Shown piece by piece: positions 30,788 through 43,460 of a stretch of 64,000 nucleotides of DNA. The notes below the pieces were generated by a model. It saw only the letters and a list, made by a program, of their open reading frames with translations. It was not told the origin of the DNA and did no database searches. Position 1 is the stretch's first letter. The number at the start of each line of letters is the position of its first letter. The translations under genes were made by a program, and so were the position numbers. Source of the stretch: Deltaproteobacteria bacterium (lineage in GTDB: Bacteria; Desulfobacterota; DSM-4660; Desulfatiglandales; Desulfatiglandaceae); contig JAIPDI010000023.1 of assembly GCA_021737785.1 (NCBI GenBank), forward strand, positions 1 through 64,000, given 5' to 3'.

Positions 30788-31768
30788 ATGGATATACAGG
30801 AAATCACACGCAAGGTCGAAAAAGAGAGTCTGATGGTCAGGCAGGTGATGGGCGGGATCGAAAAGGTGATCGTGGGCCAGAGGCACCTCATCGAAAGGAT
30901 GATGATCGGGTTATTGTGCGACGGTCATCTCCTGTTGGAAGGCCTTCCGGGACTGGCCAAGACCACGGCCGTCAAGACCCTGGCGGCCTCCATACGTACC
31001 ACATTTCAGAGGATCCAGTTCACCCCCGACCTCCTCCCCGCAGATATACTAGGAACACAGTTCTACCGGCCGGATACCTGCACCTTCGAGATCAAGCAGG
31101 GGCCCATCTTTCACAACATCATCCTGGCGGATGAAATCAACCGTGCCCCGGCAAAGGTCCAGAGCGCACTTCTGGAAGCCATGCAGGAGAGGCAAATCAC
31201 CATCGGCGAGACCACCTTTCCGCTGGCGCATCCCTTTCTGGTACTGGCCACTCAGAATCCCATTGAACAGGAAGGGACCTATCCCCTTCCGGAGGCCCAG
31301 ATCGACCGCTTCATGCTCAAGATCAAGGTGGATTATCCGTCAGCCGAGGAAGAAAAGGAGATCATGGCGCGGGTCTATGCCGGATTGGATGAGGAGATGG
31401 AAGGCGTGGTGGCGGTGGAACAACTACGGTCGGCCCAGGAGATCATGAACCAGATCCACATGGAGGAGCGCATTGTGGATTACATCGTGCGACTGACCGC
31501 GGCCACCCGCCGGCCGGAGGAGTTCGGCCTTGATATCGGGCCCATGATCAGCTACGGGGCCTCCCCCAGGGCATCCATCTGGCTCGGCATGGCCGCCCGC
31601 GCCCATGCCTTTCTGAGCGGTCGAGGCTATGTGACGCCCCAGGATGTCAAGTCGATGGCGCCGGATGTCTTTCGGCACCGGATCATTCTCAGCTATGAGG
31701 CAGAGGCTGAAGAAAAGCAGGCAGACGACCTGATAAAGATCCTGTTGGAACGAATAGAGGTCCCCTGA
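30788..31768 (+). CDS. MoxR-family AAA+ ATPase
   Basis: A 326-residue MoxR chaperone-like ATPase. Walker A is GLPGLAKTT (~52), Walker B with sensor is ILADEINRAPAKVQSALLEAM (~112), and arginine-finger and sensor-2 regions follow. MoxR proteins act on VWA proteins encoded beside them, in complex maturation or stress tolerance. It heads an eight-gene run ending at 39110. GACCAGGAGGAG is the ribosome site. The next ATG is one base after its TGA. Confidence 0.92.
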   Translation: MDIQEITRKVEKESLMVRQVMGGIEKVIVGQRHLIERMMIGLLCDGHLLLEGLPGLAKTTAVKTLAASIRTTFQRIQFTPDLLPADILGTQFYRPDTCTFEIKQGPIFHNIILADEINRAPAKVQSALLEAMQERQITIGETTFPLAHPFLVLATQNPIEQEGTYPLPEAQIDRFMLKIKVDYPSAEEEKEIMARVYAGLDEEMEGVVAVEQLRSAQEIMNQIHMEERIVDYIVRLTAATRRPEEFGLDIGPMISYGASPRASIWLGMAARAHAFLSGRGYVTPQDVKSMAPDVFRHRIILSYEAEAEEKQADDLIKILLERIEVP

Positions 31769-31769
31769 G

Positions 31770-32645
31770 ATGCTTTCAGAGGCGGTATACAAGAAGATTC
31801 AGCGATTCCACTTTACGACCAAACGGAGGGCCAATGATCTCTTTGCAGGCCAGTACGAGAGCGCTTACAAGGGTCGGGGGATGGAGTTTGCCGAGGTCAG
31901 GGAATATCAGATGGGCGATGATATTCGGACCATCGACTGGAATGTATCGGCCCGGTTCGGCCGTCCCTTTGTCAAGGTCTTTCACGAGGAGCGGGAGTTG
32001 ACGGTTATCCTGATACTGGACCTCTCGGGATCCCATCTCTTCGGCACCCGGGGAAAATTTAAGCGGGAACTGCTGGCCGAGGTGGCCGGCATGCTGGCCT
32101 TTCTGGCCATCCGGACCAACGACAAGGTGGGGGCCATCCTCTTCAGCTCCGGGGTGGAGAAATACATCCCTCCCAAGAAGGGGGCATCTCATGTGTGGCG
32201 CCTGATCAAGGAGATCTTTACCTACGAGCCCCAGGACCTGAATACCGATATCAACGCGGTCCTGACCTATCTGAACCGGGTGGCAAAGCGCCACTCGATC
32301 GCATTTCTCATCTCCGATTGCATGGATACCGGTTTTGAGAGATCTCTGAGGCTCACGGCCAAGAAACACGATCTCACGATTATCCAGGTGACGGATCCGG
32401 CCGAAGAGGTCCTTCCCGAGGTGGGGCTGGTGGCCCTCAGAGATCCTGAAACCGGCGAGACCGCGCTTTTGGACACCCGCAGCAGACGGCTCAGGAAAAG
32501 GTGGCAAGACTACCGTACAGAGCAGCGGGCGTACCTGACCGATCTCATGAGGCGGGCGGGGATCGACCACGTGGAACTGACCACCGACGGACCGGTGGTG
32601 GAACCCCTGACCCGGCTCTTTGAAATGAGGAGGCGGCGGCAATGA
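31770..32645 (+). CDS. DUF58 protein
   Basis: A 291-residue cytoplasmic protein. The DUF58 signature is clear: GRGMEFAEVREYQ.GDDIR.IDWN followed by GRPFVKVFHEERELTV and the VWA-like DLSGS metal site (~85). The usual partner of MoxR, it is thought to be a VWA-type adaptor. It starts one base after moxR ends and overlaps the next gene by an ATGA. Confidence 0.9.
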   Translation: MLSEAVYKKIQRFHFTTKRRANDLFAGQYESAYKGRGMEFAEVREYQMGDDIRTIDWNVSARFGRPFVKVFHEERELTVILILDLSGSHLFGTRGKFKRELLAEVAGMLAFLAIRTNDKVGAILFSSGVEKYIPPKKGASHVWRLIKEIFTYEPQDLNTDINAVLTYLNRVAKRHSIAFLISDCMDTGFERSLRLTAKKHDLTIIQVTDPAEEVLPEVGLVALRDPETGETALLDTRSRRLRKRWQDYRTEQRAYLTDLMRRAGIDHVELTTDGPVVEPLTRLFEMRRRRQ

Positions 32646-33631
32646 GGGGGGGAATGGACCGCCGTTTCAAGAGGTTGACCATGCTCTGCCTCCTTTTCTG
32701 TGTGCAAGGGGCCTGGGCAGGCGGTTCAGACCTCCCCGAACCCCGGTTGAAGACCCGGTTCATCCCGGATTCAGCCCGGGTGGGGAGCATGGTCGAACTG
32801 GCGCTTACCTACCGGCTTCCGGAAGGGGCAAAACTCCCCCCGGAACCCTTGATCAAGGGTCTCGAAGGTCTTGATGTGGTGGGTATCCAAAAGAATAATG
32901 GAGAGATCCGGATCCGGCTCCTGGTGGACCGGCTGGGCGAATTTAAGACCGGCCCCCTCTCTCTGGCCTTTCTGACCCCGGAAGGGAGCACGGAATTTCT
33001 TCACACAGACCCTGTCGGCCTGACGGTCCTCTCAAACCTCGGGGAGCGGCCGGACGAGGCCCGGATCAAACCGATCTACGGAATTATCCCCACGGGCTCC
33101 GGCTTCATGGAGTCCCTGGGTTGGGGTCTCGCGGCCCTGGGGGCCTGTGCGGCAGGTCTTGGCATTTTTCTGTGGCTGAGAAGGCGCCGGAAGAAGCGGG
33201 GGCTCCCCCGGGTTCAGGTCCCCCCGCACCACCTGGCGGAGAAGGAGATCCATGCGCTGGCATCCCAGGAGATTTTTGAAAAGGGCCATGTCAAGGAATT
33301 CTATTTCCGATTTTCTGAAATCCTGAGACGCTATCTGGAATCTCTCAGGGGATTTCCTGCGGCGGAGTATACCACCCAGGAGATCGCCCTTTCGATCCAG
33401 GCCCCCGAGGACCGGAAGATCCTCCCCCTGCTGCAGGATGCGGACCTGGTCAAATTCGCGGACCTCATCCCGACGCCCGCCAGGAAACGGGACGAGATCG
33501 AACAGGCCCTCGCATATATCCGCGAGACCGGTTCGGCCTTTGAAAAGGATCCTGCCGATCACAGCGTCAAGGGCCGGGGCATCGGAATCGGCGGTCGACG
33601 GGCAATTCAGAATGAGGGGGCGGCCCCATGA
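32642..33631 (+). CDS. BatD-like / DUF4381-like membrane protein
   Basis: A 329-residue protein with a cleavable-looking signal (LCLLFCVQGAWAGG), an extracytoplasmic beta-rich region (~30-150), one membrane segment (~156-180) and a cytoplasmic tail whose ILRRYLE.LRGFPAAEYTTQEI block is typical of DUF4381/BatD C-termini. It probably links the MoxR/DUF58 pair to the VWA proteins in the membrane. Overlaps are ATGA at the 5' end and ATGATG at the 3' end. Exact family name is uncertain. Confidence 0.7.
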   Translation: MRGGMDRRFKRLTMLCLLFCVQGAWAGGSDLPEPRLKTRFIPDSARVGSMVELALTYRLPEGAKLPPEPLIKGLEGLDVVGIQKNNGEIRIRLLVDRLGEFKTGPLSLAFLTPEGSTEFLHTDPVGLTVLSNLGERPDEARIKPIYGIIPTGSGFMESLGWGLAALGACAAGLGIFLWLRRRRKKRGLPRVQVPPHHLAEKEIHALASQEIFEKGHVKEFYFRFSEILRRYLESLRGFPAAEYTTQEIALSIQAPEDRKILPLLQDADLVKFADLIPTPARKRDEIEQALAYIRETGSAFEKDPADHSVKGRGIGIGGRRAIQNEGAAP

Positions 33632-34623
33632 TGTTTCGGCTTGCCTACCCCGTCCTCCTCTTCCTCCTGGTGGCGGCGGCCGCGTGGACGGCCTTTGCAT
33701 TCCGGCGGCGGCCTGCGGCCATCACCTACTCCATGACCTCCAGAATGGTCCCCATGGCCGGTGCGCGAAACCAGGTCCTGGCGAGGCTGCCCGTGATCCT
33801 GAGGGGATGCGTCCTGGTCCTTCTGGTCCTGACCGCGGCCAGACCCCAGCTGTATAACGTGTCGCGGGATGTCCGGTCTCCGGGTGTGGACATTATGCTC
33901 TGCCTGGATACTTCGGGCTCCATGGAGGCCCTCGACTTCAAATTGGGGGATGAACCGGTCACCCGGCTGACTGCTGTGAAGAAAGTGGTCAGCGATTTTA
34001 TCAAGAAGAGAGAAACCGACCGTATCGGGCTTGTGGTATTTGGCGAAGAGGCCTTTACCCAGTCGCCCCTTACCATTGACAAGGGACTCCTGATGGGGCT
34101 GGTGGACAAGATGGAAATCGGGATGGCCGGCGACCGAACCGCCATCGGATCGGCCATTGCCATCGGCGGAAAACGGTTGAAGGACCTGAAGGCCAAGTCC
34201 AAGATACTGGTCGTCCTGACAGACGGCCGTAACAATGCGGGCGAGATCCCCCCCCTGGCAGCGGCAGAGGCGGTCCGGGCACTGGGCGTCAAGATCTATA
34301 CCATCGGTGTGGGGGGAAAGGGACCGGCCCCCTTCCGGGTAAAGACCCCTCTGGGAACCCGCCTGGTGCATCAGCAGGTGGATCTGGATGAAACGACCCT
34401 CAAGAAGGTGGCGGAGACCGGAGAAGGGAGGTATTTCCGTGCCGCTGACAGCCGGGAACTGTCAGAGATTTACGACATAATCGACCGGGCCGAAAAGACC
34501 GATGTCAAGGTCAAGGAATTCTTTCATTTTAAGGAGCTTTACGCCTGGTTCCTCGTCCCGGCGCTCATCCTGTTCGGGCTGGAGATCCTGCTCAAGACCT
34601 GGATTCTGAGGGTGATCCCATGA
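33628..34623 (+). CDS. batA: BatA-like VWA membrane protein
   Basis: A 331-residue protein. Two N-terminal hydrophobic segments (~5-25 and ~55-75), a von Willebrand A domain with intact MIDAS (CLDTSGSME near 94, later T and D residues in GIGSA/LTDGRNNAGE blocks), and a C-terminal membrane segment (~305-325). BatA and BatB form a membrane complex first described in Bacteroides aerotolerance. It is coupled to both neighbours by ATGA overlaps. Confidence 0.85.
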   Translation: MMFRLAYPVLLFLLVAAAAWTAFAFRRRPAAITYSMTSRMVPMAGARNQVLARLPVILRGCVLVLLVLTAARPQLYNVSRDVRSPGVDIMLCLDTSGSMEALDFKLGDEPVTRLTAVKKVVSDFIKKRETDRIGLVVFGEEAFTQSPLTIDKGLLMGLVDKMEIGMAGDRTAIGSAIAIGGKRLKDLKAKSKILVVLTDGRNNAGEIPPLAAAEAVRALGVKIYTIGVGGKGPAPFRVKTPLGTRLVHQQVDLDETTLKKVAETGEGRYFRAADSRELSEIYDIIDRAEKTDVKVKEFFHFKELYAWFLVPALILFGLEILLKTWILRVIP

Positions 34624-35624
34624 ATTTTGCCTATCTCTGGATGCTCCATTTTTTATGGCTGGCGCCCCTGACGGCCCTCCTCTTCATCGTCTACAACCGG
34701 CAGAAGACGCGGGCCATGGAACGGTTTGCCGACCCGGAACTCCTCAGCCGGTTGTCAGGAGACATCCAAAAGGGAAGGCGAATTCTCAGGTCCGCATGCC
34801 TGTTGGCGGCCCTGATCCTGATGATTCTGGCCCTGGCCGGTCCGCGGTGGGGGAGCCATTATCAGGAGGTCAGCCAGAAGGGGGTGGACATCATGATCGT
34901 CTTGGATGTCTCCCGAAGCATGCTGGTGGAAGATGTGGAACCGGACCGGCTGGAGAGGGCCAAGCGGGAGATCTCGGATTTTATTCGCGTGGTTCAGGGG
35001 GACCGGGTGGGTCTGGTGGCCTTTGCAGGGGCGGCCTTTACACAATGTCCTCTCACCCTGGATTATGGCGCCCTGGCCATGTTTCTGACTGCCCTGAGCC
35101 CGGATATGGTGCCGGTCCCGGGGACCGATCTGGGGGCGGCGCTTCAGAATGCCATGTCTTCCTTTGACGCCGCATCCGAGACCGACAAGGTTATTCTCCT
35201 GATCACGGACGGCGAGGACAACGAGAACCGGGGACTTCAGGCGGCCCGTGAGGCGGCCAAAAAAGGGATCAAGATCTTTGTGTTCGGGATCGGGGATCCG
35301 TCCGGAGGCCCCATCCCTTCGGCCGACGGGAAAGGCGGGTTCAAAAAGGACGCTGAGGGTCAACTTATCCTGTCTAAGCTGGATGAAGAGGGACTCACGG
35401 AAATCGCCTCGGCCACCGGCGGGACCTATGTCCGATCAATGGCCGGTGACCTGGATCTGGATCTCCTCTATTTCGATGGGATCAAACAGCGGACAGAGGC
35501 CGCCGAACTCAAGAGCGGCAAGATAAAGGTGTATGAGGAACGGTTTCCCCTGTTTGTTCTGGCCGCCTTTGTCTTGCTGCTGGTGGAAGGCCTGATTCGT
35601 GAAGTGGGAAAGGAGCGCATCTGA
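34620..35624 (+). CDS. batB: BatB-like VWA membrane protein
   Basis: A 334-residue paralogue of the preceding gene with the same layout: hydrophobic segments at ~5-20 and ~58-75, MIDAS VLDVSRSM (~97), LITDGEDNENRG, and a C-terminal membrane helix (~305-325). The first MIDAS serine is replaced in order by S-R-S, still D-x-S-x-S. It begins with ATGA overlap. The stop is followed at once by a 7-base tandem repeat. Confidence 0.85.
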   Translation: MNFAYLWMLHFLWLAPLTALLFIVYNRQKTRAMERFADPELLSRLSGDIQKGRRILRSACLLAALILMILALAGPRWGSHYQEVSQKGVDIMIVLDVSRSMLVEDVEPDRLERAKREISDFIRVVQGDRVGLVAFAGAAFTQCPLTLDYGALAMFLTALSPDMVPVPGTDLGAALQNAMSSFDAASETDKVILLITDGEDNENRGLQAAREAAKKGIKIFVFGIGDPSGGPIPSADGKGGFKKDAEGQLILSKLDEEGLTEIASATGGTYVRSMAGDLDLDLLYFDGIKQRTEAAELKSGKIKVYEERFPLFVLAAFVLLLVEGLIREVGKERI

Positions 35625-35657
35625 ATGCGGAATGCGGAATGCGGAACGCGGAATGCG
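35625..35657. repeat. Heptamer array ATGCGGA at the batB/batC junction
   Basis: Units ATGCGGA x3, ACGCGGA, then a partial ATGCG, starting on the base after the batB stop. Each unit supplies an ATG. Since 7 is not a multiple of 3, unit gain or loss would shift any frame that starts within the array. Confidence 0.85.
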
Positions 35658-35678
35658 TTAAGGGGAAAGAGACGCCTG

Positions 35679-36542
35679 ATGCGTATGGCTGTGTGGGCCG
35701 GGGTATTTTTTGGCTCCCTTGCTCATGGGGCGGAGGACCCGGATGAGCTGTACCGGAAGGGCCGGTTTACCGAGGCGCAGAAGATCTATTCCCAAGCGGA
35801 CATGGATCATCCCAGGGACCTGAGATATCGCTATAACCGGGGGTGTGCCGAGTATCAGGCCGGCGACTACAAGGGGGCCATGGCGGCATTTTCCAGTGTT
35901 CTGAGAAGGGGGGAAGAACGGGAGATCCGTTTCAGGGCGGCCTACAATCTGGGCAATGCGGCCTTCAAGGAGGGCGATGCCGCCTCGGCGGCCGAGTATT
36001 ACCGGCAGGCCATTCGGATCGATCCAAACCAGGAGAATGCGCAACACAACCTGGAACTCGCCCTCAGGGAATTGAAAAGCCAGGAAAAAGAAAAAGAGGA
36101 GAAAGAGAAATCTTCGGGGAAAGAAGGGGGTCAACAGGACCCCTCGAAAACAGAGGGTGAAAAGGAAAAGCCCCTGGAGAGGCCTTCTCCGGACGCATCG
36201 CCTGACAAGGATGGCGATCAGGAAAGAGACACGGACGGGAAAGACGCCGGGACCCCGCCTGAAGAAAAGAGAGGTGAGGATGAGGGGGAAAAGAGCGGAC
36301 AGGATCAGGACGAGAGGCCTGACCGTGAGTCCCCCAAAGACCTGTCAAAAGAATTAAAGCCCCGCGAGGCCTTGCCCGAACCGTCTCAAGAACCAGAGGG
36401 CGGCCCTCCGGCCGCCTCTTCGATGGATAGCAAAAAAGCCGAGGCCCTGTTGGACAACGTAACCGAAGATCGCTCCAGATTCCTGCAGCTTCAAATGCCC
36501 GAAGAAAGACGCCGCGGGGCAGTATCAGGAAAGGATTGGTAG
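35679..36542 (+). CDS. batC: BatC-like TPR protein
   Basis: A 287-residue protein from the ATG at 35679, which begins a signal-like segment (MAVWAGVFFGSLAHGAE). Three TPR repeats follow (~25-125), then a ~120-residue Lys/Glu-rich disordered linker, and the typical BatC end LLDNVTEDRSRFLQ. An open reading from the ATG at 35625, inside the tandem repeat, would add 18 residues (RNAECGTRNALRG); I prefer the later start because it gives a normal export signal. It is coupled to batB and precedes batD by one base. Confidence 0.78.
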   Translation: MRMAVWAGVFFGSLAHGAEDPDELYRKGRFTEAQKIYSQADMDHPRDLRYRYNRGCAEYQAGDYKGAMAAFSSVLRRGEEREIRFRAAYNLGNAAFKEGDAASAAEYYRQAIRIDPNQENAQHNLELALRELKSQEKEKEEKEKSSGKEGGQQDPSKTEGEKEKPLERPSPDASPDKDGDQERDTDGKDAGTPPEEKRGEDEGEKSGQDQDERPDRESPKDLSKELKPREALPEPSQEPEGGPPAASSMDSKKAEALLDNVTEDRSRFLQLQMPEERRRGAVSGKDW

Positions 36543-36543
36543 G

Positions 36544-38301
36544 ATGCACAGACTTGTATTCTTGTTGGCGGTCCTTATGGCAGTACCGGGATTTTCAAAC
36601 GCCTATGCAGAAGTTTCCATCACTCTGACCCTGGACAGGCAGGAGGCGACGCCCTCCGATTCCATACGCATGGTGGTCAGCGTGACCGGCGCCAGACAGA
36701 CTGACGCCCGGCCGGTGATCGAGGGGGTGGATCGGTTTCGGGTGACACAGGGGGGGAGTTCGAGCCGGGTGGAGATCAGCAACGGCACCATCCGTTCAGG
36801 GGTCGATTATACCTATTTTCTTACGCCGTTACAGCCGGGGTCTTTTCAGGTCGGACCGGCCAGGATCCAGGTGGACGGGGAGATCCTTGAGAGCAATACG
36901 GCGCCCCTGACCATTGTCAAGGCGCCCTCCCGGGCATCTCCCGGCAAGAACCCCATTTTCCTGAAGGCGGCCCTTTCATCAGAAAAGGCATATGTTGAGG
37001 AACAGCTTCTGTACACGCTCAGCCTTTATCTGAGGACCAGGGTCGCCAATATCTCTCTTGAGCTTCCGGAGCAGGATCATTTGACCTTTCAGCAGTTGGG
37101 CAAGCCGAGGGAATACCAGGGAGTGCTGGATGGGCACACCTATCGAATCGTAGAGGTCACTTATGCGGTGATGGGCCTTAAGGACGGGGATTACCATATC
37201 CAACCTGCCCAGATGGATATGACCGCCTATGGATCCGGACAGCGGTCCAGACGGGGATTTTTCGACGATCCCTTCTTCTCAGACCCGTTTTTTAGAACCG
37301 GACAGCCGGTAAGCGTCTCCAGTGAACCGCTTGAATTGACGGTTATCCCCCTCCCCGAAACAGGAAAGCCGGAGGGTTTCAGCGGGCTCGTGGGCAGCTT
37401 CACCATCGCCTCTGAGCTGTCTCCGGCCAAGATACGAGCGGGTGAATCCGCCACCCTGACCGTAAAGGTGAGCGGCAGGGGAAATGTCCACCGCATTCCA
37501 GACCTCAAGATGCCATCACTGGATTCGTTGAAAATCTATGCAGACCAACCGGTTTTTGCGGCAGCCCACGATCATGATGGCCTGGCCGGTTCCAAGATAA
37601 TGAAATGGGCCATCGTGCCCGAATTGCCGGGCGATTATCCAATTCCTCCCCTCACTATCAGTTTTTTCGACCCCAAGGGAGGTGAGTATCGGATCCTCCA
37701 GAGCCCCGGACACTCCCTGGCCGTTATCCCGGGGAAGGGAAAGATGATCATGGTGGAAGCCGGAGAAGAGAGACAGGATGGGGGTCACGGACCGGAAAAA
37801 AAGGAGATTCGGGAAGTCGGACATGATATCCTCCCCCTCCATACCTCTGTCAGAAATTTGGGAACCCAATCATTGCCGCGAAGCAACCTGTTTTTATGGA
37901 CTGTCCTTTTTCTGCCGGTCTTTGTCTATGTCTCTACATTCCTGGGACTACGGCTCCGGAAAAGGTCGCTCCAGACCCTGCCTGCCCAGCGGGCAAAGCG
38001 GGCGGCCCGCAATCTGATCCGGGAGTGCCGGCAATCCGAGGGAAATGATGCAGAACGCTTGAACCTGGGGATAAGGGATTATTTCAATGACCGCTTCGGC
38101 CTGGCCCTGGCCTCTCTGACCCCTGAGGATGCGGTCGGCATATTGGAATCCCGGGGGGTGAGTCCGGAAACCGCCGGAAGGCTCCGGGATATCTTGCAGC
38201 GGATGGAAAATGCAATCTACGCGGGGAGGGGCCGGGGATGGGACAGCTTCAGCCGGGAGATCCCCGGGGTCGTCCGGGAGATCGAGAGGGAGATCCGGTG
38301 A
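36544..38301 (+). CDS. batD: BatD oxygen-tolerance protein
   Basis: A 585-residue protein: signal peptide (1-23, ending in NAYAE), several Ig-like beta domains (~25-440) with the conserved F..R......V..S..L.L.V.P.P pattern, one membrane helix (~447-467) and a cytoplasmic helical tail (~480-580). BatD is the periplasmic part of the Bat complex. FFDDPFF..DPFF near 240 is a normal feature of the family. The 3' end overlaps batE by GTGA. Confidence 0.85.
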   Translation: MHRLVFLLAVLMAVPGFSNAYAEVSITLTLDRQEATPSDSIRMVVSVTGARQTDARPVIEGVDRFRVTQGGSSSRVEISNGTIRSGVDYTYFLTPLQPGSFQVGPARIQVDGEILESNTAPLTIVKAPSRASPGKNPIFLKAALSSEKAYVEEQLLYTLSLYLRTRVANISLELPEQDHLTFQQLGKPREYQGVLDGHTYRIVEVTYAVMGLKDGDYHIQPAQMDMTAYGSGQRSRRGFFDDPFFSDPFFRTGQPVSVSSEPLELTVIPLPETGKPEGFSGLVGSFTIASELSPAKIRAGESATLTVKVSGRGNVHRIPDLKMPSLDSLKIYADQPVFAAAHDHDGLAGSKIMKWAIVPELPGDYPIPPLTISFFDPKGGEYRILQSPGHSLAVIPGKGKMIMVEAGEERQDGGHGPEKKEIREVGHDILPLHTSVRNLGTQSLPRSNLFLWTVLFLPVFVYVSTFLGLRLRKRSLQTLPAQRAKRAARNLIRECRQSEGNDAERLNLGIRDYFNDRFGLALASLTPEDAVGILESRGVSPETAGRLRDILQRMENAIYAGRGRGWDSFSREIPGVVREIEREIR

Positions 38302-39110
38302 GAAAGAAGAGGATCTGGTTAATCATAGTCCTCCTCACGGTCGGGCTGTCTGTTGTGTCAGACACATGTGCAGACATCGGGTGGGAGGAGACCTTTTTCA
38401 GAGCAAATCAGGCATACCGGGAGGGTCATTTTCAAGAGGCCATCGACGGCTATCTATCTCTCATCCGTTCGGGAAAGGAGGGCGGTCCGGTCTATTACAA
38501 CCTGGGCAACGCCTATTTCAAATCAAACCAGCTCGGCCGGGCCATCTGGGCCTATGAACGGGCCCTCTTGCTCACGCCGAGGGACCCGGATCTCCGGTTT
38601 AATCTCTCCCATGCACAGGATCAGACCCGGGACGCCATCGAAGATCCCCGGGGAGCCATTGAGATGATATTTTTCTGGCTGAGATCATTCAGTCTCCGTG
38701 AGCTGTTCAGGGGCTTTGCTGTCTTGAACCTCCTCTTCTGGTCCATCCTTGTGGTCCGGTTTTTCAATCGATCGGAATGGCTCTACTATCTTTTTCTGTT
38801 CGTCATCTCATTATGGTTTATCGCAGGGCTTTCCTTCGGCCTCAAATATTACCGGATCAGCACTGATGACCGGGCCGTTGTCCTTCAGAAAGAGGTCGAT
38901 ATCCTGGCTGGTCCTGACACGACCGATACCGTGCTTTTCAAGCTCCACGAGGGAACAGTGGTACACCATGAGAGATCAGAGGATGGGTGGTCCCTGATCC
39001 GTGTATCCGAAAAGAACCGTGGCTGGACCACGGCAGGGGCCATCGGCCGCATCTCGGGCGAGGCGACCCTGCCCGATGAAGAAGAGGGAAAGGCCTTAAG
39101 TGGTGGGTGA
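38298..39110 (+). CDS. batE: BatE-like TPR/SH3 protein
   Basis: A 270-residue protein starting with GTG at 38298 (overlapping the batD TGA) directly before a signal segment (IWLIIVLLTVGLSVVS). Two or three TPRs follow (~25-105), two membrane segments (~130-150 and ~160-185), and a C-terminal bacterial SH3 domain (~195-255, VDILAGPD...GWSLI). This matches BatE. It is the last gene of the operon. An upstream in-frame ATG at 38238 would lie within batD. Confidence 0.82.
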   Translation: MRKKRIWLIIVLLTVGLSVVSDTCADIGWEETFFRANQAYREGHFQEAIDGYLSLIRSGKEGGPVYYNLGNAYFKSNQLGRAIWAYERALLLTPRDPDLRFNLSHAQDQTRDAIEDPRGAIEMIFFWLRSFSLRELFRGFAVLNLLFWSILVVRFFNRSEWLYYLFLFVISLWFIAGLSFGLKYYRISTDDRAVVLQKEVDILAGPDTTDTVLFKLHEGTVVHHERSEDGWSLIRVSEKNRGWTTAGAIGRISGEATLPDEEEGKALSGG

Positions 39111-39254: not shown

Positions 39255-40073
39255 TCACGGGAGGGTATTCTCGGGCCAGCCTTTCCGGATATCATAGTCC
39301 TCCGCGGCCTCTATGGCGGTCAATGCCTGAACAGCGGCCTTATGGTCCCATGACGCCTTATAATTGGCATAGATCCAATCGGTCATGGCCGCATGAAAGG
39401 CAAGTACATCGGCCTTTGTCATGGGGATGTTCTGATTGTCCGATGAACGCCAGGCAAAACCGGCCGGCAATCCAGGGTCGGCCACGGCCGTCCTGGCGGC
39501 GACCGCGGCCAGGGCGCAACGGCTCCTTTCACTGCTGTCGAAGGCGTTTCCCCTGAAGACAACCCCTCCCTCTATCTTTCGGGCACGCAGGGCATTGATC
39601 TGGCTGCATTTTTTTTGAACCACCTCTTCCAAAGTGATCAGTACATCATGAATCACGGCCATGAGGGCTTCCGGCTCAATCGGTTTTTCCAGGAATGCAT
39701 CCGGCCTGGTCTCGATAAACCGGTTCAATACCTCTTCTGTGGGCCTGTCCCCCAGCGATTCAATATCTTCATGAAAGTCGCGCAGTTCGGCCAGGTGCTT
39801 CAGGAATCCTCCCTCGCCGGTGAGAATAATTACAGGTATGTCCCGGTATTCCGGCGACTTCTTGAGTTCGTTGAATACGAATATCCCACTCTTTTTGGGC
39901 ATCCGCAGGTCCAGGAGGATCAGCCCGGGGGAGACCTCCGCGACCTTGGCAAGCCCTTCTTCTCCGTCAAAGGCACTGGAAATGTCGGCAAAACCGTTTT
40001 CTTCCAGTATGGTGGTCAAATAGCGCACATTTTCCTTTTCATCATCAATGATCAATACCTTTGTTTTTTTCAT
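39255..40073 (-). CDS. CheY-like receiver fused to DUF4376 domain
   Basis: A 272-residue protein. The receiver is complete: DD at 10-11, phosphorylated D55 in LILLDLRMP, T in VIILTGE, K in FLEKPIE. About 25 extra residues sit between the T and K strands (AELRDFHEDIESLGDRP region). From about residue 170 the protein matches DUF4376 of phage tail-associated proteins: a GGVVFRGNAFDSS start, PMTKADVLAFHAA, then a helical run ending DIRKGWP. No DNA-binding or enzymatic output is visible. GGAGGAAATT precedes the ATG at 40073. A kinase lies upstream on the same strand. The function of the C-terminal domain is unknown; the fusion itself is seen directly. Confidence 0.8.
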   Translation of the reverse strand: MKKTKVLIIDDEKENVRYLTTILEENGFADISSAFDGEEGLAKVAEVSPGLILLDLRMPKKSGIFVFNELKKSPEYRDIPVIILTGEGGFLKHLAELRDFHEDIESLGDRPTEEVLNRFIETRPDAFLEKPIEPEALMAVIHDVLITLEEVVQKKCSQINALRARKIEGGVVFRGNAFDSSERSRCALAAVAARTAVADPGLPAGFAWRSSDNQNIPMTKADVLAFHAAMTDWIYANYKASWDHKAAVQALTAIEAAEDYDIRKGWPENTLP

Positions 40074-40233: not shown

Positions 40234-40566
40234 GTGAAGACAACCGTCAGGGGCCGTTATCAGAGCAATCCCATGTCCATCGCATATTCGGTAATCAACG
40301 TATCCGTCACCACTGTTCTTGCCCTGGAACCGTTCCGGGTGAGTGTCGGATCTGTCTGGACCACCGGCAATCTCCTCTTTCGCGCCCAGTTTTGCGGTCG
40401 AGACATTGTCGCCTGCATGGAACGATGGGCAGGCGCCGTAGACAGGACCGGCCGCGCCTATATCCTCTACCCTGCGGATCACCCCAGGGCAGAAGGTCTG
40501 GTGATTCAGGCCCTGGACAGCCGCTACTGTTTTGAGGTGTTTCCCTCCAACGGCAATGCCGCCTGA
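40234..40566 (+). CDS. Possible small protein opposite the signalling genes
   Basis: A plausible 110-residue reading frame (GTG at 40234; ATG at 40273 gives 97 residues) between the receiver and kinase genes, on the other strand. Third codon positions are rich in G and C as in real genes here, and a mid-protein block CGRDIVACMERWAGAV looks protein-like. No ribosome site, signal or family was recognised. The opposite strand is also open and weaker. The remainder of the 544-base gap (40074-40617) shows no other feature. Confidence 0.35.
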   Translation: MKTTVRGRYQSNPMSIAYSVINVSVTTVLALEPFRVSVGSVWTTGNLLFRAQFCGRDIVACMERWAGAVDRTGRAYILYPADHPRAEGLVIQALDSRYCFEVFPSNGNAA

Positions 40567-40617: not shown

Positions 40618-42486
40618 TCATTGTATATCTTCAATTCGAATTGTAAAGACCGAACCTTTGCCCAGTGACGATTGAACCGAGATATTCCCCCCATGCTCTG
40701 ATACCATCTTGTCTGACACACACAGACCCAATCCTGTGCCATGGCCGTCCTTGGTGCTGAAAAACCGGGAGAAGAGTTTGCTCCGGGTCTCTTCGCTCAT
40801 CCCAACACCGTTATCCGCAACAATAAAGCGGACATCCCCTTTGTCCCGTTCCACCCGGACGTCAACCGTGGGGGTCTCTCCTGCCGGATAGGCCTTTTCC
40901 CTGCACGCATCCATTGCATTGGAAACGAGGTTTAAGAGGGCGCGGCCGATGGTCTCGGGATCCAGCTTCACCAAAGGCCCCTCCTCCCCGCTGCAAGAAA
41001 TATGGATCCCTTCCTGTTGCGCGGCAGTCGCCACCAGGTCAACGGTCTCCCGGGCCAGTTTCAGAGGATCCGTGGGGCGTCGCGCCGGTTCTCTCTCCCG
41101 GCAATAACTGAGCATGTCCAGGCTGAGCCTGCTGATGCGTTCGATCCCCTTCTGGACGGTCCCCCACCCCTCCTGCAGCAGTTTGTCATCTTTCCGCTTC
41201 AGACCCACATTCAGCATGTATGAACCGCCCTTGAGCCCATTGAGCACGTTCTTGATGCAGTGGGTGATCCCTGCAACCGTTTCCCCCACTGCCGCAAGGC
41301 GTTCCTGCTCCATGAGCTGTTGACGCAACCGGTTTTCTTCGGTGACATCCCTGCTGATCCCGACGGTTCCCAATATGCGGCCATCGCTGTCTTTCAATTG
41401 CGACAGTGACAGACTGACTTCCACCTCGTCCCCACCCTTGGAAAGAAGCGTTGCAGGGAAATTGTTTACAGCGCCCCTTGCTTCCACCTCAGCCATCAGC
41501 TTCCGGCGTTCATCCGGTGCCTTCCACAATCTGTCAATCCCCTGGCCGATGATGTCATCCCTGCCGTAGCCCAGCATCCGCTCGCCTGCCGGGTTGAAGG
41601 TGACGATACGGCCCTTGAGATCGGTGGTGATGATCATATCGGAGGAATGAACAAGGATGTTTTCCAGATACTCCTTATGCTGTCGTACCGCTTCCTGAAG
41701 TTCGATTTCCTCGGTCATGTCCCTGGCCATGACGGCGAATGACACCATTTCCCCCTGCTCGTTCCAGATAGGGAAGCGGACGGTATGGAAATGGAAGGTC
41801 TGTCCGTTGACCTCCATTTTCTCGTTAAAAAAGAGGGTTCTTCGGTGATCGAGGACCTGTTGATCGTGGGCGGCCATGGCCCTGGCCAGCGGGGCCTTGA
41901 AGATCTCCGCATCGGTTTTGCCGATCACTGCTTCCTGGGGCATTCCGATGTAGTGAACCGTGGCAGGATTGACATAGAGATAGCGGCCTTCGAGGTCCTT
42001 GATACAGATAATATCCTGGGCAGACTCCAGGAATTGACGGAGCTTCTGCTCCCCTTCCCGCTGCACCTGCTGCTTTTCTGTTTCAATCTGTACCAGATCC
42101 CACAACAGGCGAGCCCCCCGATGGTCAATGGAGCTGATATCGAGGGGTTTGGTTCGGATGATTTGTTCCCGCACCTCATTGGATCCGGTCAATTCGATGA
42201 GCAGATTCAACCCCGGGATGTCATACAGCTTCTTGAAATCGTCGGTGGTAAAGATCCCCATCCCCTGGGCGCGTAGAATGCCCGGGGCAGTGGGGGTGCG
42301 ATCGGCAACGCCCACGATCTCCATGTTCAACCGTTTCAGCCGTTCCTGACTCAACAGGATCAGGAGGTCGTCACAGGCCTTGCCCCCTCCGATAATGGCG
42401 GCCTTGAGGGGCACCCGGGATTGGGCGCCTCTTCGGATCACAGGAGGCGCGGTGGCCTCCTGGTTTGCTTTTTTATTCCGGTCCAC
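40618..42486 (-). CDS. Histidine kinase: Rossmann-like N-terminus, two PAS domains
   Basis: A 622-residue soluble kinase with a GTG start at 42486 (AAAAGGGG upstream). Residues ~27-130 look like an NAD(P)-type Rossmann domain (KAAIIGGGKACDD, then IVGVADRTP and LLIELTG), as in dehydrogenase N-termini. PAS domains span ~150-275 and ~280-395. The phosphoacceptor block is THCIKNVLNGLKGG (H-x-I-K-N type), and the ATPase has NLVSNAMDA, DNGVGM and GTGLGL. No membrane segment is seen, so the signal is cytoplasmic, perhaps a nucleotide cofactor (inference). It lies between a CBS/ACT protein and the receiver-DUF4376 protein, its likely partner. Confidence 0.85.
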   Translation of the reverse strand: MDRNKKANQEATAPPVIRRGAQSRVPLKAAIIGGGKACDDLLILLSQERLKRLNMEIVGVADRTPTAPGILRAQGMGIFTTDDFKKLYDIPGLNLLIELTGSNEVREQIIRTKPLDISSIDHRGARLLWDLVQIETEKQQVQREGEQKLRQFLESAQDIICIKDLEGRYLYVNPATVHYIGMPQEAVIGKTDAEIFKAPLARAMAAHDQQVLDHRRTLFFNEKMEVNGQTFHFHTVRFPIWNEQGEMVSFAVMARDMTEEIELQEAVRQHKEYLENILVHSSDMIITTDLKGRIVTFNPAGERMLGYGRDDIIGQGIDRLWKAPDERRKLMAEVEARGAVNNFPATLLSKGGDEVEVSLSLSQLKDSDGRILGTVGISRDVTEENRLRQQLMEQERLAAVGETVAGITHCIKNVLNGLKGGSYMLNVGLKRKDDKLLQEGWGTVQKGIERISRLSLDMLSYCREREPARRPTDPLKLARETVDLVATAAQQEGIHISCSGEEGPLVKLDPETIGRALLNLVSNAMDACREKAYPAGETPTVDVRVERDKGDVRFIVADNGVGMSEETRSKLFSRFFSTKDGHGTGLGLCVSDKMVSEHGGNISVQSSLGKGSVFTIRIEDIQ

Positions 42487-42501: not shown

Positions 42502-43215
42502 TTATCCAACGATCCATTCGCCGGGTGGTCTGGTGTAATCCTGAAAGACCTCCTTTGTTTTTTCCCGGCGGTCCACCAGATAGAGCAGTTTGGCCTTGGC
42601 TTTCAAGGCCGCTTTCATCTCTTCCATTCGTCCCCTGTCACAGTCAAACACCCTTATGTAGACATGCCTGGTGCCTTCAAGACCGGCAGTGGAACTCAGG
42701 ATGCTGCCCACGCGACAGCCGTAGCTGCGAAGAATATCCGCTACTTCTTTGATGGACCCCGGCCTGTTTTCCAGCAAAAAAGCAACCTGTACGCCCTTTT
42801 CCCGGACGCCTGTCAGCGAAACCAGCACCTGGAAGATGTCCGTCTGGGTGATCATCCCCACCAGTTTTCCCTCAGGATCCACCACAGGGGCCCGCGACAG
42901 CTTGTGATCAAGGAGGACCTCGGCGGCCTCCTCGACCGTGAAATCGACGGGGATGGTGATCGGATCCTTGGTCATGATATCCTGGACCTTGATCCTCGAG
43001 ACCAGGTACAAAAGCTCATGAATATCCAACGTGTTGGCATCGGAGGCAGACGCCCTTTTCAGATCTCTGTCCGTCACTATGCCTACCAATTTCCCTTTTT
43101 TCATAACCGGCAGTCCTCTGAAATGATGCTCTTTCATCAGCCTGGACGCGTCCGACATAGAGTCGTTTACATCGACCGTGATCACCTCTTTGCTCATCCA
43201 ATTCTTGACTAACAT
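42502..43215 (-). CDS. CBS-pair and ACT domain protein (AcuB-like)
   Basis: A 237-residue protein. Two CBS motifs (~1-58: MSKEVITV...GIVTDRDLK; ~75-130: IMTKDPITI...GMITQTDIF) form an adenylate-binding Bateman module. An ACT-like domain follows (~140-212, FLLENRPGSIKEVADILRSYGCRV). This is the AcuB arrangement, where nucleotide and small-ligand binding tune a partner. GAGGAGG lies upstream of ATG 43215. It ends 16 bases before the histidine kinase, so a regulatory role within that system is plausible; acetoin genes are not present. Confidence 0.88.
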   Translation of the reverse strand: MLVKNWMSKEVITVDVNDSMSDASRLMKEHHFRGLPVMKKGKLVGIVTDRDLKRASASDANTLDIHELLYLVSRIKVQDIMTKDPITIPVDFTVEEAAEVLLDHKLSRAPVVDPEGKLVGMITQTDIFQVLVSLTGVREKGVQVAFLLENRPGSIKEVADILRSYGCRVGSILSSTAGLEGTRHVYIRVFDCDRGRMEEMKAALKAKAKLLYLVDRREKTKEVFQDYTRPPGEWIVG

Positions 43216-43460
43216 GGGTATGCCTCCTCTCGTTAATGCGTTCATAATAATTAACCTACTTTATCCTAAAAGCATGCAGGATGTCACCCGGAATCGTAAG
43301 TTGAGGGATTGGGCCTTTTTGCGATCATGATGTCTTCTGTTTACACCTTCGAAAGCGCTGTATTCCCTGAGAGCATATCGGCCGCAACCAAAAAGGTATT
43401 GGTGCTTACCCATAAGGCACCAACTTCTCCGCATGGTCCAGAGAAGTTACAACCAAAGGT
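43216..43460. other. Intergenic region, no gene seen
   Basis: Left part of an ~870-base stretch between the divergent CBS and birA genes. A small hairpin (GGTGC...GCACC near 43401-43422) is visible. Open frames here are translated repeats. Confidence 0.4.

Follow-up and report, generated by a model that had tools for sequence, protein, structure and literature searches.

A family of Desulfobacterota response regulators that carries a phage-type DUF4376 domain as its putative output

Response regulators mostly act through DNA-binding domains or second-messenger enzymes, or consist of a bare receiver. What, then, does a receiver do that is joined in one chain to DUF4376? The question is raised by a gene in the window, by which we mean the whole 64,000-nt stretch of DNA that was analyzed (contig JAIPDI010000023.1, from a Deltaproteobacteria bacterium of the Desulfatiglandaceae). 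The preliminary description, made from the sequence alone, knew of no receiver with a DUF4376 output, and our literature search likewise found no paper on a protein that combines a response regulator with DUF4376. The literature found on DUF4376 places it in products of phage or prophage-type genes, and the literature that names both a tail fiber chaperone and a response regulator concerns Alteromonas phages. We class the protein as a response regulator, a known kind, whose putative output domain is new.

We found that the fusion gene starts at an ATG on the minus strand (Table 1) and that a clear AGGAGG ribosome-binding site lies immediately 5' of this codon; hence, the start of a longer 299-aa open reading frame is unneeded. 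A promoter scan at the locus gave results near chance. Both Pfam matches fall within the single 272-aa frame, Response_reg (PF00072) at residues 6-88 (69.9 bits against a cut-off of 30.2, E 2.5e-19) and DUF4376 (PF14301) at residues 153-260 (78.2 bits against a cut-off of 25, E 8e-22), and residues 146-268 match the PHROGs families 'tail protein' and 'tail fiber protein'. The Response_reg match ends at residue 88 because an insertion precedes β5. The first seven homologues in the alignment all share D10, D11, D55, T85, K130 and F127, the switch aromatic, and the receiver half scores 74.9 bits with the NF045717 model for DVU0259-type response regulators, below its cut-off of 160. Hence, a complete CheY-like receiver and a C-terminal DUF4376 domain do share one chain, as had been read from the sequence, and the profile match by which the preliminary description proposed to check the second domain was obtained.

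Table 1. Features of the regulator locus, in window coordinates
Feature	Position	Strand	Evidence
Receiver-DUF4376 fusion protein, 272 aa	39255..40073	-	Gene call, Pfam, homologue alignment, AlphaFold2 model
Receiver domain (residues 1-146; insertion ~88-122; D10/D11/D55/T85/F127/K130 intact)	39636..40073	-	Pfam, alignment, model
DUF4376 domain and leading helix (residues 147-272 and stop; Pfam match 153-260)	39255..39635	-	Pfam, PHROGs, model, fold search
Conserved orphan protein, 97 aa, antiparallel between kinase and regulator	40273..40566	+	
Cognate histidine kinase, 622 aa (Pfam-negative N-terminal ~150 residues, two PAS, H-box region, HATPase_c)	40618..42486	-	
CBS-CBS-ACT protein, 15 nt upstream of kinase	42502..43245	-	

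The AlphaFold2 model (monomer, 38 aligned sequences, mean pLDDT 88.6, pTM 0.71; with only 7 sequences, pLDDT had been a poor 64) consists of a CheY fold followed by a domain like those of phage DUF4376 proteins. Its receiver half superposes on PleD and CheY, and the matches listed in the PDB fold search were almost all receivers. Some 25 extra residues had been noticed before the last receiver strand, and the model puts this insertion between β4 (81-85) and β5 (126-129), where helix α4 (90-97) leads into a low-confidence loop (96-111) and then an extra helix (112-119). Helix α5 (134-145) is followed with almost no break by a helix at residues 148-168. For the DUF4376 half, the fold matches in BFVD were phage DUF4376 proteins (A0A6J5KL38, target TM-score 0.82, rmsd 2.3 Å, 24% identity), in line with the structural comparison that had been suggested, and the DUF4376 profile found nothing beyond chance matches among PDB sequences.

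The fusion is not peculiar to the window. We found nine intact copies including that of the window, each in one open frame: seven in the window's family (G000, G002, G003, G011, G019, G027 and G073) and two, in G222 and G194, from a family that is distant but belongs to the same phylum. The eight other copies, all from Desulfobacterota, are 62-82% identical to the window protein over its full length, and the named carrier records are metagenome-assembled genomes of that phylum. Among the 85 genomes of the window's class, which holds a single order in our genome set, DUF4376 matches occur in eight, each being the fusion or its remnant, and a free-standing DUF4376 gene was not found. The remnant lies in G008, where a deletion has brought a piece of the kinase up against the end of the receiver and, in another frame, a shortened DUF4376. 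This locus (L007, 1372-1785, G008:C108), with its truncated DUF4376, is a decaying copy.

In pairs with finite dS, the receiver core had a dN/dS of 0.00-0.07 and the DUF4376 half one of 0.08-0.28, and dN was lower for the receiver core in every pair. Hence, both halves are under purifying selection, DUF4376 less tightly. Since carriers are mostly metagenome-assembled drafts, one might suspect that the junction arose in assembly or sequencing, or that the two domains came into one frame by chance, and the preliminary description had itself named a frameshift or assembly join as the danger. However, the same junction is intact in independent assemblies of two families, with purifying selection on both sides, and we consider an artefact virtually impossible, ruled out by the intact copies in independent genomes and by dN/dS. 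The receiver-DUF4376 fusion is confirmed as a real family.

How the two halves came together is indicated by relatives that have only one of them. We found stand-alone receivers of 147-148 aa, without DUF4376, in four genomes of the second family (G093, G165, G222 and G194). They are 57-63% identical to the receiver of the fusion, have a matching insertion and immediately precede an orthologous kinase, whose catalytic part is 55-62% identical, and an orthologue of the 97-aa protein converges on the 3' end of that kinase. A branch of the receiver tree separates the nine fusions from the four stand-alones (support 86/75, 99% of bootstrap trees). Since a sister 148-aa receiver without DUF4376 lies beside the same kinase, a single-domain regulator probably gained DUF4376, and one such gain followed by transfer or loss would be the simplest history. 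The preliminary description suggested capture from a prophage; the donor may have been any phage, but these sisters and the receiver tree support capture onto a bacterial single-domain receiver.

On the donor side, we collected and compared about 45 phage DUF4376 domains. In their tree, the domains of the fusions group with the phage domains L095 and L064, with a support of 98/90 for the branch of the fusions and L095; we do not rely on the placement of two rows with long branches, L080 and L023. Together with the BFVD fold matches and an alignment to gp27 of Alteromonas phage V22 at 96% probability, this grouping bears out the assignment of DUF4376 to a phage type. The L095 phage is a candidate for the donor lineage. 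A scan with the DUF4376 part found no close match in viral contigs, a profile search gave two distant phage loci, and the best annotated phage relative was in Sinorhizobium phage Phosso (33.6% identity over 126 residues). With no more than about 34% identity to even its best annotated phage relatives, the domain was probably captured long ago. We found no receiver-DUF4376 fusion among 50,697 phage records (no place covering 80% of the query). V22 gp30, a CheY-like protein, was rejected as the source of the receiver because it is too distant (25% identity over 83 residues). As a separate observation, the L095 gene (208-672, minus strand of a phage contig) encodes a DUF4376 motif unusually near that of the fusion (STNY..SFAHK.AIAALTDI...DYD...GW).

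The locus itself looks like that of a two-component system. Besides the window, an orthologous kinase (62-75% identity) directly adjoins the fusion gene in G003, G027, G073, G222 and G194, and an orthologue of the CBS-CBS-ACT protein is found near the locus in G003 and G073. The N-terminal ~150 residues of the kinase (window 42037-42486, minus strand) have no Pfam match; by eye they possibly form a nucleotide-binding, dehydrogenase-like fold, which might serve as a redox or metabolite sensor.

The 97-aa protein has no Pfam or NCBIfam match. Among 46 genomes of the window's family, all seven that have an intact fusion encode it, as does 1 of the 39 others (Fisher p = 1.5e-7, which is not a formal test because the genomes are related). 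The sole exception, G001, carries the kinase (86% identical) and the 97-aa protein at a contig end; since the contig stops exactly where the regulator is expected, its absence is probably an assembly gap. In G019, the 97-aa protein and the kinase are on a different contig from the regulator and yet are present. The 97-aa gene lies antiparallel between kinase and regulator, so co-transcription of kinase and regulator in the window is not required. Across both families, the protein is kept in 12 genomes, mostly beside such PAS kinases, with or without the DUF4376 fusion. From its conservation and position, the protein seems to be a part of the two-component system that has been overlooked.

The wider neighbors are Bat/MoxR, biotin and molybdopterin genes. 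A MoxR/DUF58/BatA/TPR/BatD-like operon (window 30788-39110, plus strand) ends 145 bp from the 3' end of the regulator gene, convergent with it, and is probably unrelated to it. No fiber or phage gene was recognized beside the locus, and the fusion gene does not adjoin a tail-fiber gene as a phage tail-fiber chaperone gene does. We rejected the fusion as a prophage gene, given this chromosomal housekeeping neighborhood and a genome in which Baseplate_J was not found.

DUF4376 had first been taken for a domain of unknown function; published work instead identifies it as a tail-fiber chaperone domain, which sharpens what an output of this kind could do. V22 gp27, which carries a C-terminal DUF4376, is needed for active V22 tail fibers (PMC7289586, PMC10579305), and in CJIE1-like prophages the fiber needs a downstream DUF4376 gene (PMC7882524). 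The domain is predicted to trimerize (PMC7289586, PMC10579305, PMC7882524); in models, the chaperones form trimers with a helical core and β-hairpins, like intramolecular chaperone domains, and bind the fiber through a shared β-sheet (PMC10579305).

Our preferred reading, to which we assign a probability of roughly 0.55, is that the protein is a response regulator with a phage-derived tail-fiber-chaperone domain as its output, which holds a host protein partner. It builds on observations: the fusion, its conservation and selection, its pairing with a kinase, its single-domain sister and the homology of its C-terminal half to chaperone domains. The PAS histidine kinase would sense a signal and phosphorylate D55 of the receiver, and the change at the α4-β5-α5 face would pass through α5 to the first DUF4376 helix; since α5 runs almost directly into that helix, the path from the phosphorylation face into the output would be short. 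Either the oligomeric state of DUF4376 or the exposure of its client-binding β elements would be altered, and the domain would then bind and hold a host protein partner instead of DNA. Phosphotransfer, allosteric coupling, oligomerization and the existence of a client are what we infer from these observations. The partner might be the 97-aa protein that co-occurs with the system, the CBS-ACT protein or the kinase itself, and switchable oligomerization or client binding would be the likeliest mode. The fuller version, in which a domesticated fiber-chaperone domain is a phosphorylation-switched output that holds or trimerizes a client, has a dedicated small partner and forms a new output class, seems to us an even bet.

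DUF4376 may instead have kept its phage job: gated by phosphorylation, the regulator would chaperone or cap a trimeric fiber or adhesin encoded elsewhere (in a tailocin, a prophage, an injection system or a cell-surface fiber). Chaperone function is known for V22 gp27 (PMC7289586), and the fusions retain the hallmark phage motif W-x(3)-DNxx-[VI]xM[TDN]. However, chaperone genes usually adjoin the fiber gene, as in L064 and V22, and such a neighbor was not recognized here; moreover, among the seven intact-fusion genomes of the window's family, all drafts, six lack a Baseplate_J gene and only G019 has one. We therefore hold this explanation to be improbable, and retained fiber-chaperone work is less likely than switchable oligomerization or client binding. 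The six genomes without a phage baseplate gene suggest that DUF4376 was probably exapted as a phosphorylation-controlled binding or oligomerizing output.

DUF4376 could also be a mere stabilizing or multimerizing appendage, with the receiver and its conserved insertion doing the work; it might bind a target, for instance, or serve as a phosphate sink. Next to a kinase of the same type, the single-domain sisters do without DUF4376, so that in the fusion, too, the receiver may still act as the output; the receiver core is the more conserved half; and the low-confidence insertion loop (96-111) could itself be the output surface. Against this, DUF4376 is intact and under selection in nine copies, and G222 and G194 keep both forms in one genome, which suggests different jobs for the two. 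Hence, we regard the appendage as a minority possibility and continue to favor a DUF4376 that holds a partner.

It seems that, in a few related Desulfobacterota, a signaling protein that normally ends after its receiver gained the tail of a phage fiber chaperone. If so, a selected output made from a phage fiber chaperone would show one way in which parts of phage assembly come into host signaling. The fusion also offers a soluble setting in which DUF4376 can be studied by itself, and the sister genomes with the unfused form, together with the two genomes that carry both, make the effect of gaining DUF4376 directly testable.

The closest known systems lie on two sides. The named DUF4376 chaperones are those of Alteromonas phages V22 (gp27) and A5 (gp9), of Campylobacter CJIE1-like prophages and of Fletchervirus. 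V22 gp27 scores 76.2 bits with the Pfam DUF4376 model, and hhalign aligned the profile of our DUF4376 half to it with 27% identity over 104 columns. Phage DUF4376 chaperones have a fiber-specific N-terminal part and a gene beside the fiber gene, whereas in the fusion the receiver takes the place of the N-terminal fiber-binding domain and the gene lies beside a histidine kinase on a bacterial chromosome. In V22, the CheY-like gp30 is encoded three genes after gp27, so that both domain types occur in one phage tail module, but as two separate proteins, unlike the fusion; given its low identity to our receiver, gp30 is a parallel rather than a demonstrated ancestor. CheY-like receivers also lie close to tail-fiber genes in Alteromonas phages of different types, V22, R9Y1 and XX1924 (L172, 24372-24959 and 25749-26198; L170, 6998-7450; L171, 2044-2457). 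On the bacterial side, the receiver half aligns with single-domain response regulators (DivK, MrrA) and with the DVU0259 type (NF045717), from which the fusion differs by a C-terminal domain after α5. To our knowledge, its output is neither an enzyme nor a member of any known output class. Like PleD, whose output does not bind DNA, the fusion joins a receiver to an output outside the known DNA-binding domains.
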